From: Rhodoferax sp.
GTDB taxonomy: Bacteria; Pseudomonadota; Gammaproteobacteria; Burkholderiales; Burkholderiaceae_C
Reading direction: 5' to 3'
Length of the DNA stretch: 64,000 nucleotides
Assembly: GCA_031291305.1 (NCBI GenBank)
Contig: JARLJH010000040.1
Coordinates: 99,265 to 163,264 of the forward strand
Shown: piece by piece, positions 46,507 through 51,405 of the stretch
Numbering within the stretch: the first letter of the stretch is position 1
Layout of the letters: each line of letters starts with the position of its first letter
Position numbers and translations under genes: made by a program
Notes under the pieces: generated by a model
What the model was told of the DNA's origin: nothing
The model's database searches: none
What the model saw: only the letters and a program-made list of their open reading frames with translations

Positions 46507-48477
46507 ATGGCAACCAAAATGAACTCTGAATATTCCGAAGGCTCGATCCGCGTTTTGAAAGGGCTGGAGCCCGTCAAGCAGCGCCCGGGCATGTACACAC
46601 GCACCGACAACCCCCTGCACATCATCCAGGAAGTGCTGGACAACGCTGCTGACGAGGCGCTGGCCGGACACGGCAAAAAGATCAAGGTCACGGTGCATGC
46701 CGACGGTTCGGTGAGCATCGAAGACGATGGCCGCGGCATCCCGTTCGGCCTGCATCCCACCGAAAACGCGCCAGTGATCGAACTGGTGTTCACCCAGTTG
46801 CACGCTGGCGGCAAGTTTGACAAGGGCAAGGGCGGCGCCTACAGCTTTTCGGGCGGTTTGCACGGCGTGGGGGTGAGCGTGACCAATGCGCTCAGCACCC
46901 GGCTGGAAGCCACCACTTACCGCGACAACCAGGTGGCACGACTGGTGTTTTCCGCGGGTGATGTGATTGAACCCCTGACCGTTCGCCCGGCGGGAGACGG
47001 CGAGCGCCGCTCCGGCACCTGCGTGCGCGTCTGGCCGGACGCCAAGTATTTTGAATCGATGGCGCTGCCGATGGCACATCTGGAACATCTGTTGCGCAGC
47101 AAGGCGGTGCTGATGCCGGGTGTGACCGTGTCGTTGACACAGGAAAAGACCAAAGAAACGCAGACTTGGGTGTTCAAGGGTGGTCTACGCGATTACCTGA
47201 CGCAAACGTTGACCGGTGAGCCGGTGATTCCATTGTTTGAGGGCGATGGATTCGCTGACGCGCAAAACGACAGCTTTGCCGACGGCGAAGGTGCGGCCTG
47301 GTGTGTGGCGTTTACCGAAGACGGCCAGCCGGTGCGTGAAAGTTATGTCAACCTGATTCCGACCACCGCAGGTGGTACGCATGAGTCGGGCTTGCGCGAT
47401 GGCCTGTTTACCGCGGTGAAAAGCTTTGTCGAGCTGCATTCGCTGTTGCCCAAGGGTGTCAAACTGTTGCCGGACGACGTGTTTGCGCGTGCCAGCTATG
47501 TGCTGTCCACCAAGGTGCTCGACCCGCAGTTTCAGGGGCAGATCAAGGAACGCCTGAACTCGCGCGATGCGGTGCGGTTGGTCTCCAACTTTGTGCGCCC
47601 CGCGCTGGAGCTGTGGTTGAACCAGAACGTGGAGTACGGCAAAAAGCTGGCTGAGCTGGCCATCAAGGCCGCGCAGAGTCGACAAAAGGCCGGGCAGAAA
47701 GTCGAAAAACGCAAAGGATCCGGCGTGGCTGTGCTGCCGGGCAAACTGACAGATTGCGAAAGCCGCGACATTGCCGACAACGAAGTTTTTCTAGTCGAAG
47801 GTGACTCGGCTGGCGGCAGCGCCAAGATGGGCCGCAACAAGGAAAGTCAGGCGATCCTGCCGCTGCGCGGCAAGGTGCTCAACACCTGGGAAGTGGATCG
47901 TGACCGGCTGTTTGCCAACAACGAAATCCACGACATTGCGGTGGCCATTGGCGTCGATCCGCATGGCCCGAACGATTCGCCCGACCTGAGCGGCCTGCGT
48001 TACGGCAAGATTTGCATCCTGAGCGATGCGGACGTGGACGGCTCACACATCCAGGTGCTGCTGCTGACGCTGTTCTTCAAACATTTTCCCAAACTGATCG
48101 ACGCTGGACATGTGTACGTGGCGCGCCCACCGCTGTTTCGCGTGGATGCCCCGGCACGCGGCAAAAAACCTGCCTCCAAAGCCTACGCTCTGGATGACGG
48201 TGAGTTGACCGCCATTCTGGACAAGCTGCGCAAGGAAGGTGTGCGTGAAGGCGCCTGGACCATCAGCCGCTTCAAAGGTTTGGGCGAGATGAATGCCGAG
48301 CAACTGTGGGACACCACGCTCAACCCGGACACGCGGCGTTTGCTGCCGGTGCATTTGGGAGCACTGGACTTTGCCCAGACCTCGGAGCTGATGACCAAGC
48401 TGATGGGCAAAGGCGAAGCCGGTGCGCGGCGCGACCTGATGGAACTGCATGGAGATTCGGTCGAGGTTGATGTGTAG
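46507..48477 (+). CDS. parE: DNA topoisomerase IV subunit B
   Basis: A 656-residue ATPase subunit (E. coli ParE 630). GHKL motifs: VLDNAADEALAGHGKK, then IEDDGRGIPFGLHP and FSGGLHGVGVSVTNALS. The TOPRIM domain contains LVEGDSAGGSAKMGRNKESQ and LSDADVDGSHIQVLLLT. The length and the MGRNKESQAILPLRGK-VLN run suit ParE rather than GyrB. It partners with parC 525 bases downstream to decatenate chromosomes. Confidence 0.95.
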   Translation: MATKMNSEYSEGSIRVLKGLEPVKQRPGMYTRTDNPLHIIQEVLDNAADEALAGHGKKIKVTVHADGSVSIEDDGRGIPFGLHPTENAPVIELVFTQLHAGGKFDKGKGGAYSFSGGLHGVGVSVTNALSTRLEATTYRDNQVARLVFSAGDVIEPLTVRPAGDGERRSGTCVRVWPDAKYFESMALPMAHLEHLLRSKAVLMPGVTVSLTQEKTKETQTWVFKGGLRDYLTQTLTGEPVIPLFEGDGFADAQNDSFADGEGAAWCVAFTEDGQPVRESYVNLIPTTAGGTHESGLRDGLFTAVKSFVELHSLLPKGVKLLPDDVFARASYVLSTKVLDPQFQGQIKERLNSRDAVRLVSNFVRPALELWLNQNVEYGKKLAELAIKAAQSRQKAGQKVEKRKGSGVAVLPGKLTDCESRDIADNEVFLVEGDSAGGSAKMGRNKESQAILPLRGKVLNTWEVDRDRLFANNEIHDIAVAIGVDPHGPNDSPDLSGLRYGKICILSDADVDGSHIQVLLLTLFFKHFPKLIDAGHVYVARPPLFRVDAPARGKKPASKAYALDDGELTAILDKLRKEGVREGAWTISRFKGLGEMNAEQLWDTTLNPDTRRLLPVHLGALDFAQTSELMTKLMGKGEAGARRDLMELHGDSVEVDV

Positions 48478-48485
48478 CTCTGTTG

Positions 48486-48539
48486 TTTGTAGCTGTCGAC
48501 GCTTTATCAATAAGGGATAGAGAGTGATTTTGTATATAT
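48486..48539 (+). repeat. Repeat family A, copy 9
   Basis: TTTGTAGCTGTCGACGCTTT, then ATCAATAAGGGATAGAGAGT and an AT-rich end. It starts 9 bases after the parE stop, in gene orientation. Confidence 0.8.
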
Positions 48540-48604
48540 GTTGTTGCGGTGCTGCCAATTTGCTTGGTATTGGCTGGGTTGGTTGATGGATGACGCTGTT
48601 GGTA

Positions 48605-48687
48605 CGCGCCGCATGGCGGCCGGTTGGGGCGGTCTCCTCATACTGGAGTACCAGAAATCGTCAACCGCCCCAACCATCCGCCACGCG
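48605..48687 (+). repeat. Repeat family C, hairpin 1
   Basis: The left arm GGCGGCCGGTTGGGGCGGT (48615-48633) pairs with ACCGCCCCAACCATCCGCC (48664-48682), with only two mismatched positions. The 30-base loop holds a small internal palindrome CTGG AGTA CCAG. Its central 28 bases (48635-48662) are identical, on the other strand, to the loop of hairpin 2. Confidence 0.8.
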
Positions 48688-48790
48688 AGTTCTTTGATCG
48701 CCAGGCTTTGTAATGGGGAACCAGAATCCATGTTCAATTTGAATTCAGCCGATCTTCACAACATGTCTCACTATTGCGTCCAGCGAGGTG

Positions 48791-48850
48791 GTCCCTGTGG
48801 GCGGCTGACGATTTCTGGTACTCCAGTATGAGGAAGCTGCCCGCAGGGAC
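48791..48850 (-). repeat. Repeat family C, hairpin 2
   Basis: GTCCCTGTGGGCGGCT (48791-48806) pairs with AGCTGCCCGCAGGGAC (48835-48850), with two G-T/A-C type differences. The 28-base loop at 48807-48834 is the exact reverse complement of positions 48635-48662. The stems of the two hairpins differ in sequence although each is self-complementary. Confidence 0.8.
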
Positions 48851-48917
48851 AGCCTTGCGGGTATGAAGCCAAGCGTTTGCTCTATACGAAGTTCATCACG
48901 CCATGGTTTCCAAAATA

Positions 48918-48974
48918 GATATTTATATAGAAAATTGGCTTCTAGCCCCTTTGCAACTTGCGCTAGTAGCTACG
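48918..48974 (-). repeat. Repeat family A, copy 10
   Basis: On the minus strand GTAGCTACTAGCGCAAGTTG is followed by CAAAGGGGCTAGAAGCCAAT and an AT-rich tail. It lies 28 bases before parC and points away from it, an exception to the usual co-orientation. Confidence 0.8.
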
Positions 48975-49002
48975 TTTAAGTGAGCATTTAACTGATTAAC
49001 TC

Positions 49003-51405
49003 ATGACTGATCAACTGATTATTGACACCCTCCCACCGGTCGAGCCCGAAGGCGACGACGCGCTGAATCTCGCCAGCTATGCGCAACGCGCCTACCTGGA
49101 ATATGCCCTGAGCGTGGTCAAGGGCCGGGCTTTGCCTGACGTGTGTGACGGCCAGAAACCGGTGCAACGCCGCATTCTGTACGCCATGTCGCGCATGGGT
49201 CTGGGCTTTGGCGGGGCCAATGGCAATGTCGGCGCCAAGCCGGTCAAATGCGCGCGCGTGGTGGGTGACGTGCTGGGCCGCTACCACCCGCATGGCGACA
49301 GCGCCGCGTACGACGCGCTGGTGCGGATGGCGCAGGACTTTTCACAGCGTTACCCGCTGATCGACGGCCAAGGCAACTTTGGCAGCCGCGACGGAGATGG
49401 CGCTGCGGCCATGCGTTACACCGAGGCGAGGCTGGCCAAAATCACCAGCTTGTTGCTGGACGAAATTGACGAAGGCACGGTTGATTTTCAGCCCAATTAC
49501 GACGGCAGCACCGAAGAGCCACGCCAGTTGCCCGCACGGCTGCCATTTGCGCTGCTCAACGGCGCCAGCGGCATTGCCGTCGGTTTGGCCACTGAAATCC
49601 CGAGCCACAACCTGCGCGAAGTGGCCGATGCCTGCGTGGCACTGATCAAGTCGCCGGACTTGACCGATGACGAGTTGTTTGCGCTGCTCCCAGGCCCGGA
49701 TTACCCCGGCGGCGGGCAGATCATCAGCAGTGCGGGCGAGATTGCCGAGGCTTATCGCAGCGGTCGCGGTTCACTCAAATGCCGTGCGCGCTGGAAGATT
49801 GAAGACCTGGCACGCGGCCAGTGGCAACTGGTGGTGACCGAATTGCCGCCGGGCGTCAGCACCCAGCGCGTGCTTGAGGAAATTGAAGAACTCAGCAACC
49901 CCAAAGTCAAGGCTGGCAAAAAGGCGCTCACGCTGGAGCAAAACCAGCTCAAAGCCACGTTGCTGTCGGTGCTGGATTGCGTGCGTGACGAGTCCAGCAA
50001 AGACGCCGCCGTGCGCCTGGTGTGCGAGCCCAAGACCAGCCGCATTGGTCAGCAGGAACTGATCAACACGCTGCTCGCGCATACCAGCCTGGAAACCACC
50101 AGTCCGATCAACCTGACGATGATTGGCCTGGATGGTCGACCGACGCAGAAGTCGCTGCGCCAAATGTTCACTGAGTGGATTGCCTTCCGCCAGACGACCA
50201 TTGAGCGGCGCTCGCAGCACCGGCTCAACAAAGTGCTGGAGCGCATCCACATTCTGGAGGGCAGGGCGCTGGTGCTGCTCAATATTGACGAAGTGATCGC
50301 CATCATCCGCCACAGTGATGAGCCCAAGGCGGCGTTGATTGAGCGCTTCAAGTTGAGCGACCGGCAGGCTGAGGACATCCTGGAAATCCGCCTGCGCCAA
50401 TTGGCCCGGCTGGAAGCCATCAAGATCGAGCAGGAACTCAGCGGGCTGCGTGGCGAGCAGCAAAAGCTCGAAGAAATTCTGGGCAGTCCGGCGGCGCTGC
50501 GTCGGCTGATGATCAAGGAGATCGAAGGCGACGCCAAAACCTTTGCCGACGAGCGCCGCACGCTGATCCAGGCCGAGAAAAAAGTGGTGCTGGAAATCAA
50601 GGTGGTGGACGAACCTGTCACCGTGGTGGTCAGCCAAAAAGGCTGGGTACGTGCACAAAAAGGCTGGGCCAAGGACAAGGGCGCTGCGGGTAATGGCAAT
50701 TCTGGCAACGCGATGCCACCGGCGGAATACACCTTCAAAGCCGGTGACGCGCTGTACGGCACCTTTGAATGCCGCACGGTGGATACGCTGCTGGCTTTTG
50801 GCTCCAATGGCCGGGTGTATTCCGTGCCGGTGTCGCTGCTGCCCGGCGGGCGCGGTGATGGTCAGCCGATCACCAGTCTGATTGAGTTGGAAGCGGGCAC
50901 GCAACTGCTGTTCTACTTTGCGGGGCCGGTTGGCGCCAGCTTGCTGTTGTCCAGTTCGGGCGCTTACGGTTTTCTGGCCAATGTGGAAAACATGGTGAGC
51001 AAGTTCAAGGCCGGCAAGGCGTTTGTGACTGTCAACGAAGGCGAAACCCTGTGTGCCCCTTCGGTGGTTGCCTGTGATGCTGGCTCTGCGCCTTGGCTGG
51101 CTGCCACGCATGTGGCCTGCGCATCGACCGGCGGGCGCATTTTGACGTTTGAGATCAGTGACCTCAAGACCATGGCCAATGGCGGGCGCGGTCTGATGCT
51201 GATTGACCTGGAGGACAGGGACACGCTGGCTGGAGCCGCCGCCTACACCCGAAGCGTGCGCATCGACGGCATCGGCCGCGGTGGCAAGGTGCGTGACGAA
51301 ACGCTGGAAATTCGCAGCCTCAACAATGCCCGCGCCGCACGCGCTCGCAAGGGCAAGCTGGCAGACCTGGGCTTCAAACCGGCGTCCGTCACGCGGGTGG
51401 AATAG
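49003..51405 (+). CDS. parC: DNA topoisomerase IV subunit A
   Basis: An 800-residue subunit carrying the DNA cleavage activity. The winged-helix region reads [20 protein letters not shown], then [18 protein letters not shown] and the catalytic Tyr in [11 protein letters not shown] (about residue 135). The quinolone-resistance region keeps Ser in HGDSA, so no classical resistance change is seen. The C-terminal beta-pinwheel (from about residue 550) is shortened compared with GyrA, as in ParC. Confidence 0.95.

Follow-up and report, generated by a model that had tools for sequence, protein, structure and literature searches.

What are the two hairpins that lie between the genes for the subunits of topoisomerase IV in this Rhodoferax genome, and why should they share a loop when their stems look unrelated? 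An initial annotation of the window (the whole stretch of 64,000 nucleotides that was analysed) had reported that positions 48635-48662 are identical to the reverse complement of positions 48807-48834, and that each copy is enclosed by a self-complementary stem of its own. Direct comparison of the sequences bore this out: the stems are as given there, and the identity extends one base further than had been claimed (48663/48806), so that the two window copies share 29 bases. (Note that we use the name F strand for the complement of the strand given in that annotation.) The features of the locus, in which the limits of the cores are based on the sequence and on a conservation table over 250 hairpins, are as follows.

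46507-48477, plus strand: parE-like gene (topoisomerase IV subunit B), upstream neighbour
48480-48605, minus strand: flank 3' of hairpin 1 on the F strand, A/C-rich and G-poor (T/G-rich on the plus strand)
48612-48687, F strand is the minus strand: hairpin 1, with a 26-bp stem, an internal loop and an apical mini-hairpin
48636-48660, minus strand: 25-base core of hairpin 1, consisting of C, GATTT, CTGG-TACT-CCAG, TATGA and GG
48688-48781, no strand: inter-hairpin spacer
48782-48857, F strand is the plus strand: hairpin 2
48809-48833, plus strand: 25-base core of hairpin 2, consisting of C, GATTT, CTGG-TACT-CCAG, TATGA and GG
48810-48814, plus strand: GATTT of the hairpin 2 core
48815-48826, plus strand: CTGG-TACT-CCAG of the hairpin 2 core
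48827-48831, plus strand: TATGA of the hairpin 2 core
49003-51405, plus strand: parC (topoisomerase IV subunit A), downstream neighbour

The hairpins occupy the 525-bp parE-parC gap. The best match of the parE-like gene was parE_Gneg, at 695.6 bits, which is under the cut-off of 723.35; parC matched parC_Gneg at 707 bits, above the cut-off of 628.9. Taken together, the two hairpins make up a single imperfect inverted repeat, in which positions 48609-48670 are 82% complementary to positions 48799-48860 (62 bases per arm, with 128 bases between the arms). Matches to the 28-mer with at most 3 mismatches were present in 0 of 100 shuffles of the window, compared with the two observed. RNA folding gave z-scores of -6.5 (plus strand) and -8.4 (minus strand) for hairpin 1, and of -5.8 (plus) and -3.9 (minus) for hairpin 2. 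Model R1 scored hairpin 1 at 83.7 bits on the minus strand and 28.0 bits on the plus strand (at 48610-48685), and hairpin 2 at 80.5 bits on the plus strand with no minus-strand match listed; note that the F-strand sequences of both window hairpins are among the 40 rows behind this model.

The loop is not confined to this locus. The initial annotation would have been contradicted by a lack of copies anywhere else; copies were found throughout the Rhodoferax genome itself and in many of its relatives, and the dispersed family with a fixed core and changing self-complementary stems that had been proposed is thus real. The genome contains 14 places with at most 3 mismatches to the 28-mer and 20 clear copies of a 20-base core, together with two weak matches at control level. 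A pattern open to any apex between CTG and CAG matched exactly at 24 places in this genome and is present in 21 of 399 genomes of the taxonomic family. With core patterns that allow one mismatch and miss diverged copies, we found the core in 23 of 60 relatives, all of the same genus; in 23 of 36 genomes of the genus (the Rhodoferax genome counted) and in 0 of 24 genomes of the order that lie outside the taxonomic family; and in 28 of 399 genomes of the taxonomic family, representing 14 of 141 genera, one of which (G123) had 61 matches. A scan of named genomes returned at least 117 stretches with the core, and among the 80 matches listed nearly all were from Rhodoferax, Limnohabitans, Polaromonas, Curvibacter, Comamonadaceae, Burkholderiales or records labelled beta proteobacterium. 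A gapped core pattern matched 71 of 369 genomes of the class, where a reversed control also matched many; among the 30 loci listed from that scan, a stem filter was passed only by the variant of the Rhodoferax genome itself and, with the common core, by G173. A model scan of the order, whose filters lose weak matches, found hairpins in 5 of 399 genomes, all of the same taxonomic family. Plasmids and phages gave partial matches at chance level, and IMG/VR gave 0 exact matches to the core. The hairpin family is scattered through freshwater and soil bacteria and is little described. The possibility that the window pair is one local inverted duplication that also covers the stems is ruled out by the 20 core copies in the same genome and by the copies in many others. 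(Five of the nine copies in one genome lie within 23 kb of a single contig, at G384:C13 61128-84155; the hairpin at locus L011, G000:C25:152892, has one arm from each of the two stem classes, as would be expected had the middle of a pair been deleted; and one Limnohabitans-type copy, L120, is on a contig that was assigned, likely through a binning error, to the planctomycete Singulisphaera.)

Which part of the hairpin is fixed? On the F strand the unit consists of a 26-base arm ending in C, then GATTT, a small hairpin, TATGA, and a second arm that starts from G. The constant core that the initial annotation described therefore stands; its single 28-base loop does not, and resolves into a 5x5 internal loop and an apical hairpin. 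The self-pairing of CTGG AGTA CCAG, half noticed at that stage, is the small apical CTGG-NGTA-CCAG hairpin that caps the internal loop, which reads TCATA/AAATC on the plus strand of copy 1. On the F strand the small hairpin is mostly CTGG-TACC-CCAG or CTGG-TACT-CCAG. Across 250 hairpins, 25 core positions are near-invariant apart from one apical base and one T/C position, and note that this conservation is partly an effect of the search, since the loci were gathered by core searches with few mismatches. That the core is conserved beyond this effect follows from model matches with other apices and from the orthologous parE-parC locus considered below. The model, built on 40 copies, led to hairpins in two further genera that have other apices (CGCAAAGCGTAGCGCG and CTGCGCATTGGGCAG) and keep CGATTT and TATGAG, the exception among the model matches being a weaker copy with TAGGAG (L334 1365-1444). 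The fetched loci contained 29 variant hairpins with 20 different apices and the internal loop kept, for which the search had required both halves of that loop, so that the model matches are the independent cases; at least seven of the 20 apices are clearly different and about nine are only 1-2 bases away from the common one. One case has a compensated change in the small stem (CGGG-TACT-CCCG). These findings indicate that what stays constant is a 5x5 internal loop between two helices, with C and GATTT on its 5' side and TATGA and G on its 3' side, and that the apical hairpin is replaceable. Judged by eye, the internal loop could form tandem G.A/A.G pairs followed by U.U, U-A and U.U.

The outer stem behaves in the opposite manner. 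In 140 non-redundant hairpins, to which no pairing filter was applied, 84.6% of the cells of a stem of about 26 bp pair in one register; sliding the stem by 1-3 positions lowered pairing to 38.6-46.9%, and shuffled partners gave 53.2%, with a maximum of 55.2% in 200 shuffles. In this set each stem pair shows on average three Watson-Crick types at a frequency of at least 5%, and the three innermost pairs are either weaker (39% and 51%) or almost fixed (96%). Alignment A1 comprises 40 rows chosen from 148 non-redundant hairpins, 47 of 250 hairpins having first been dropped for pairing below 75%; in these rows, selected for pairing, 93.1% of cells pair, the covariation score was 0.811 compared with 0.177 after shuffling, and 369 cells had changed on both sides compared with 97. 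The number of A1 pairs with any change on both sides (24) was not above that in shuffles (22.3), whereas the other measures exceeded theirs. The outermost A1 pairs (columns 3-12 with 67-76) have three or four Watson-Crick types each. Thus, the sequence of the outer stem is almost free and its pairing is kept in a fixed register. (The fixed register of the stem, together with the varying apex, rules out the idea that a fixed loop was inserted into unrelated palindromes.)

If the double helix alone mattered, A.C and G.T mismatches would be expected equally often on a given strand. On the strand of the initial annotation, isolated stem mismatches comprised 236 A.C, 42 G.T and 154 others, and hairpins richer in A.C outnumbered those richer in G.T by 144 to 16. 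When each hairpin was compared with its nearest relative, A.C had arisen from G-C in 79 cases and from A-T in 52, next to 22 G.T and 36 other mismatches and 362 compensated changes to another Watson-Crick pair. Because A.C arises from both G-C and A-T pairs, one-way deamination of a base is unlikely to account for the asymmetry, which was not seen at positions beyond about 26. An A.C mismatch on that strand is a G.T or G.U wobble on the F strand; the F strand alone therefore folds and is under selection. Fold energies agree, in that each window hairpin folds more stably on the F strand, both as RNA (hairpin 1, -59.5 kcal/mol on the minus strand vs -48.6 on the plus strand; hairpin 2, -45.7 on the plus strand vs -31.6 on the minus strand) and as DNA (hairpin 1, -32.6 on the minus strand vs -28.7 on the plus strand; hairpin 2, -20.4 on the plus strand vs -15.0 on the minus strand). 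The wobble asymmetry and the fold energies thus indicate that the initial annotation had given the wrong strand and that its complement is the meaningful one. We also entertained the idea that the complementarity had arisen by template switching between palindrome arms, in the absence of selection. Some stems are indeed near perfect over at least 26 bp; template switching, however, is blind to strand and would yield neither a 236:42 excess of A.C over G.T nor a fixed stem register around an invariant internal loop, so that this idea is already contradicted and we give it hardly any credence.

The main rival to the reading that we favour below is that the F strand is transcribed and that the hairpin is a structured RNA, acting as a small RNA or as an element for processing, stability or regulation, whose internal loop would be bound by a protein or another RNA. 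Tolerance of G.U-type wobbles together with covariation over 26 pairs is typical of RNA, both window hairpins fold more favourably as F-strand RNA than as RNA of the complement, and the hairpin is followed by a stretch rich in A and C and poor in G. This last feature is seen whichever way the next gene on the F 3' side points (A.35, C.29, G.18, T.18 in one direction; A.32, C.31, G.22, T.16 in the other, where the background is about a quarter each). Against an RNA, that next gene pointed away from the hairpin in 29 cases and toward it in 29, a count from which 52 of 110 unclear or too-short cases had been dropped and copies with GGGGTCAG tips skipped, and singles between same-direction genes likewise showed no preference of orientation (23 vs 20). 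Moreover, promoters leading into hairpins scored no higher than shuffled sequence, positions 48478-49002 gave no match to a sigma-70 promoter or a terminator, and no T run follows the hairpin (0 in the window spacer; T is 0.16-0.18 in the F 3' flank). Searches of Rfam 15 with 15 loci gave no family at gathering score, and the only hit in the window spacer was mir-1294 at 17.9 bits (E 0.45), compared with a gathering score of 90. In light of these findings we regard a structured RNA as unlikely, if still the strongest of the competing explanations.

Many hairpins occur in pairs. Neighbours less than 400 bp apart were inverted, and convergent on the CATACTGG strand, in 66 of 68 distinct cases and in 27 of 28 once redundancy had been filtered at 85%, which means that, read on the F strand, the two hairpins of a pair are divergently oriented. 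The loops of paired hairpins are 103-192 bases apart, except for two pairs at 242 and 272. No common content was apparent by eye in the inter-hairpin spacers among the Rhodoferax-type pairs listed. Many other copies are single. Degenerate partners of singles, sought with up to 7 mismatches, were present at the expected place in 2 of 82 cases (4 in a shuffled control), and singles are about as intact as members of pairs: in 40 singles and 78 pair members the median stem pairing was.957 for both, with means slightly lower in singles (.846 vs.900; p 0.74), and core mismatches averaged.80 and.40, respectively (p 0.79). By flanking genes, as assigned (like the gene directions given above) with a crude ORF caller that includes spurious ORFs, 80 singles were distributed as 23 ++, 21 +-, 20 --, two divergent and 14 inside a called ORF, and 52 pairs as 18 ++, ten +-, nine --, three divergent and 12 inside a called ORF. 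Most singles and most pairs are thus located outside called ORFs, and both kinds shun divergent promoters.

The parE-parC gap allowed the same site to be followed across species. In 24 genomes of the genus (G011, G014, G022 and G033, which had hits in another search, were not included), the pattern and the model agree that a hairpin is present at this site in 13 and absent in 11; six of the 13 loci keep both hairpins and seven keep one, and two of the hairpin-free spacers measure 75-76 bp. In G011 (locus L232) the model detected a hairpin whose core has diverged, which shows that the strict pattern gives too low a count; the loci of G014, G022 and G033 had none. Eight species that group together (support 84/97, on a branch that is not starred) all keep at least one hairpin, and the tree as a whole requires five changes in its presence. 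In 13 parE-side and ten parC-side hairpins, a set that includes two loci from named records, identity was.93 (parE-side) and.94 (parC-side) for the core and.63 and.58 for the stem, compared with.82 for parE coding sequence. The stems nevertheless pair at 82.8% and 81.9% of positions, which is modestly over shuffles on the parE side (maximum 77.5) and clearly so on the parC side (67.3), and all of these hairpins together have 53 G.T and 9 A.C mismatches. At least one hairpin thus persists at parE-parC across species while the stems are rewritten.

Such persistence raised the prospect of a chromosomal DNA site used by the host, in which an old mobile hairpin, extruded or single-stranded on the F strand, would now serve in fork, repair, topology or transcript-end function. 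The retention of a hairpin by all eight grouped species, the core that outlasts stem and coding sequence in identity while pairing holds at 82-83%, and the intactness of singles all speak for a host role. On the other side, the hairpin is unevenly distributed (28 of 399 genomes of the taxonomic family, with complete relatives that have no core), 11 of 24 parE-parC loci have none, and just 6 of the 13 with a match have both. We therefore consider a host site improbable.

In the parE-parC spacer of G021, a gene for a BglII-like restriction endonuclease (PF09195) and one for an N6/N4 DNA methylase (PF01555) lie between class-1 hairpin parts, with core pieces on both sides (L252 475-2041); this was the one case of a composite element around cargo that we saw. 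Cargo between hairpin parts calls to mind the attC sites of integrons, which are strand-specific, structure-driven single-stranded substrates with variable stems on the folded strand and conserved basal boxes. Beyond that general analogy and the G021 locus, a tyrosine recombinase acting on an attC-like substrate would have to do so with no conserved boxes at the stem base and with the fixed part near the apex, and we think it very improbable.

Evidence bearing on mobility comes from other lineages. Nine Polaromonas-type pairs form a unit of about 240 bp with unrelated flanks and with stems that differ between copies, and most of the nine have a common centre with CTACCGGTA and TACCGGTAG. (In the pairs of L069, L090, L094, L103, L115 and L123, the centre consists of GTAGCGC.CTACCGGTA and, further on, TACCGGTAG, and is itself GTAG-repeat-like.) Of 241 hairpins, 34, which are of the Limnohabitans type, are bracketed by GGGGTCAG and CTGACCCC; in 33 cases the offsets are 57-61/48-52. 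Each of five Limnohabitans-type genomes (L325-L329) has a single Y1 gene whose terminal repeat is TTAATTGGGGTCAGATCAACATTAATT or nearly so, with one mismatch between the gene's own two ends in two of the five, and this repeat is the same as the tips of the L074 hairpin. In these genomes the hairpin thus sits inside the MITE of a Y1 transposase, of which it could be a mere passenger. Tips of the GGGGWSAS type are absent from the window's copies and also from Rhodoferax- and Polaromonas-type copies. At L117 2970-4180 and L074 2300-3680, Limnohabitans-type hairpins occupy the middle of GGGGTCAG palindromes; a comparable GGGGTCAG palindrome near the former has no hairpin, one at L074 bears its tip twice, with the extra copy further out, in what looks like nesting, and a gene for a BrnA antitoxin (PF14384) lies between two GGGGTCAG MITEs at L117 3344-3706.

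The initial annotation had raised the prospect of an associated RAYT or IS200-type transposase gene. None of 31 fetched Y1 loci contained a copy of the hairpin, and nor did 11 further Y1 loci that were measured (all Y1 loci reach about 1.5 kb or less per side). A link to Y1 transposases is seen only for Limnohabitans-type genomes, by way of common terminal repeats. The Rhodoferax genome has a gene for a REP-associated tyrosine transposase (REP_Tyr_transpos; NF047646, 88.2 bits, cut-off 80) and an IS200 transposase gene (G000:C9 / L184 1456-1920; NF033573, over cut-off), neither with an adjacent hairpin. Y1 genes occur in 18 of 19 hairpin-bearing genomes and in 188 of 261 other genomes of the taxonomic family (Fisher p 0.03, uncorrected for kinship); hairpin-free genomes thus have them too, and G166 has hairpins with no Y1 match. 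This co-occurrence is suggestive at best, being weak and confounded by kinship. No autonomous element was seen in the loci that we read.

Our preferred reading, which we hold tentatively and with somewhat less than even confidence, is that the window pair is a dispersed, REP/REPIN-like mobile hairpin that works as folded single-stranded DNA and is probably read by a Y1 (HUH) enzyme. Its working form would be one folded single strand, exposed in replication or transposition; we infer DNA because hairpin orientation is unrelated to the direction in which neighbouring genes are transcribed. The internal loop would be recognised by a protein that is most likely a TnpA-REP-type HUH/Y1 nuclease or a related enzyme; a precedent is that TnpA-REP activity on the REPs of E. 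coli depends on a bulge (PMC8266576). Such a protein would need the stem only as a rigid handle and would have moved or copied the element, some copies of which may since have been kept for a role in the host. Recognition, which the initial annotation had offered as the likely reason for a fixed core, is accordingly retained here with a putative reader. On this reading the letters of the stem are nearly free, the fold of one strand and a small internal loop are fixed, and the wobble signature names the working strand, so that sequence alone yields a testable prediction of the substrate of a putative recognition protein. The hundreds of compensated variants constitute a natural set, and the locus between the topoisomerase IV genes bears on how such hairpins persist for long in place.

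How does the family compare with known systems? The usual definition of a dispersed bacterial palindrome rests on a conserved stem. In the open-licence PMC literature, four exact core strings were absent and no description of the hairpin family was found in titles or the openings of abstracts. Like the structured RNAs of Rfam, the family combines a covarying helix with an invariant internal loop; unlike them, its copies occur in both orientations to genes. It differs from an intrinsic terminator in that no T run follows the hairpin, and from attC in that the base of its stem varies with no conserved R boxes and its fixed internal loop is near the apex. It is distinctly possible, if somewhat doubtful, that the family is a separate class of bacterial structured element, whose hallmark is a GATTT/TATGA internal loop flanked by two helices that covary, and of which a single strand is used, with a putative reader dedicated to it; such a class might well be neither REP, attC nor a known RNA, with stems nearly free of sequence constraint.

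Among mobile elements, the TIRYTs described in section 16 of PMC3733652 pair GGGGWSAS terminal inverted repeats with a Y1 transposase. The Limnohabitans-type hairpin is like these, being the interior of a MITE with the terminal repeats of the transposase gene itself; unlike in TIRYTs, both tips are present at just 34 of 241 hairpins. A further close likeness is to REPs and REPINs (GTAG and CGTC palindromes), of which the GTAG type is mobilised by RAYT (TnpA-REP). Both are extragenic palindromes, mostly in inverted doublets, that shun divergent promoters, vary in copy number among species, are recognised on one strand and, in the REPs of E. coli, have a bulge in the stem. According to PMC8266576, a mismatch bulge in the stem of E. 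coli REPs is required for TnpA-REP activity, whereas complementary sequence may take the place of the loop and upper stem; compensatory changes are noted in REPIN hairpins in PMC3116915. The family also lies mostly outside genes, between co-directional or convergent ones, and has two inverted palindromes as a unit, yet many of its copies are single. Whereas Table 1 of PMC3733652 gives REP stems of 5-13 bp, which are family-specific, the stem here is about 26 bp with nearly free sequence, and what is fixed is a 5x5 internal loop beneath an exchangeable apex. CGTC was present at the F-strand 5' foot in 36 of 214 hairpins, compared with 18 in one shuffle, GTAG in 28 compared with 15, and a strict CGTC-spacing-GCG in 17 compared with 2; a CGTC/GTAG tag is thus weak or absent as a hallmark and at most a trait of a lineage. 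In contrast to REPINs, singles of the family are not clearly decayed relative to pairs, and no RAYT was found linked to its copies at the Y1 loci examined. Because tag, stem length, decay of singlets and linked RAYT all set it apart, we do not file the family as REP or REPIN, although it works like one.
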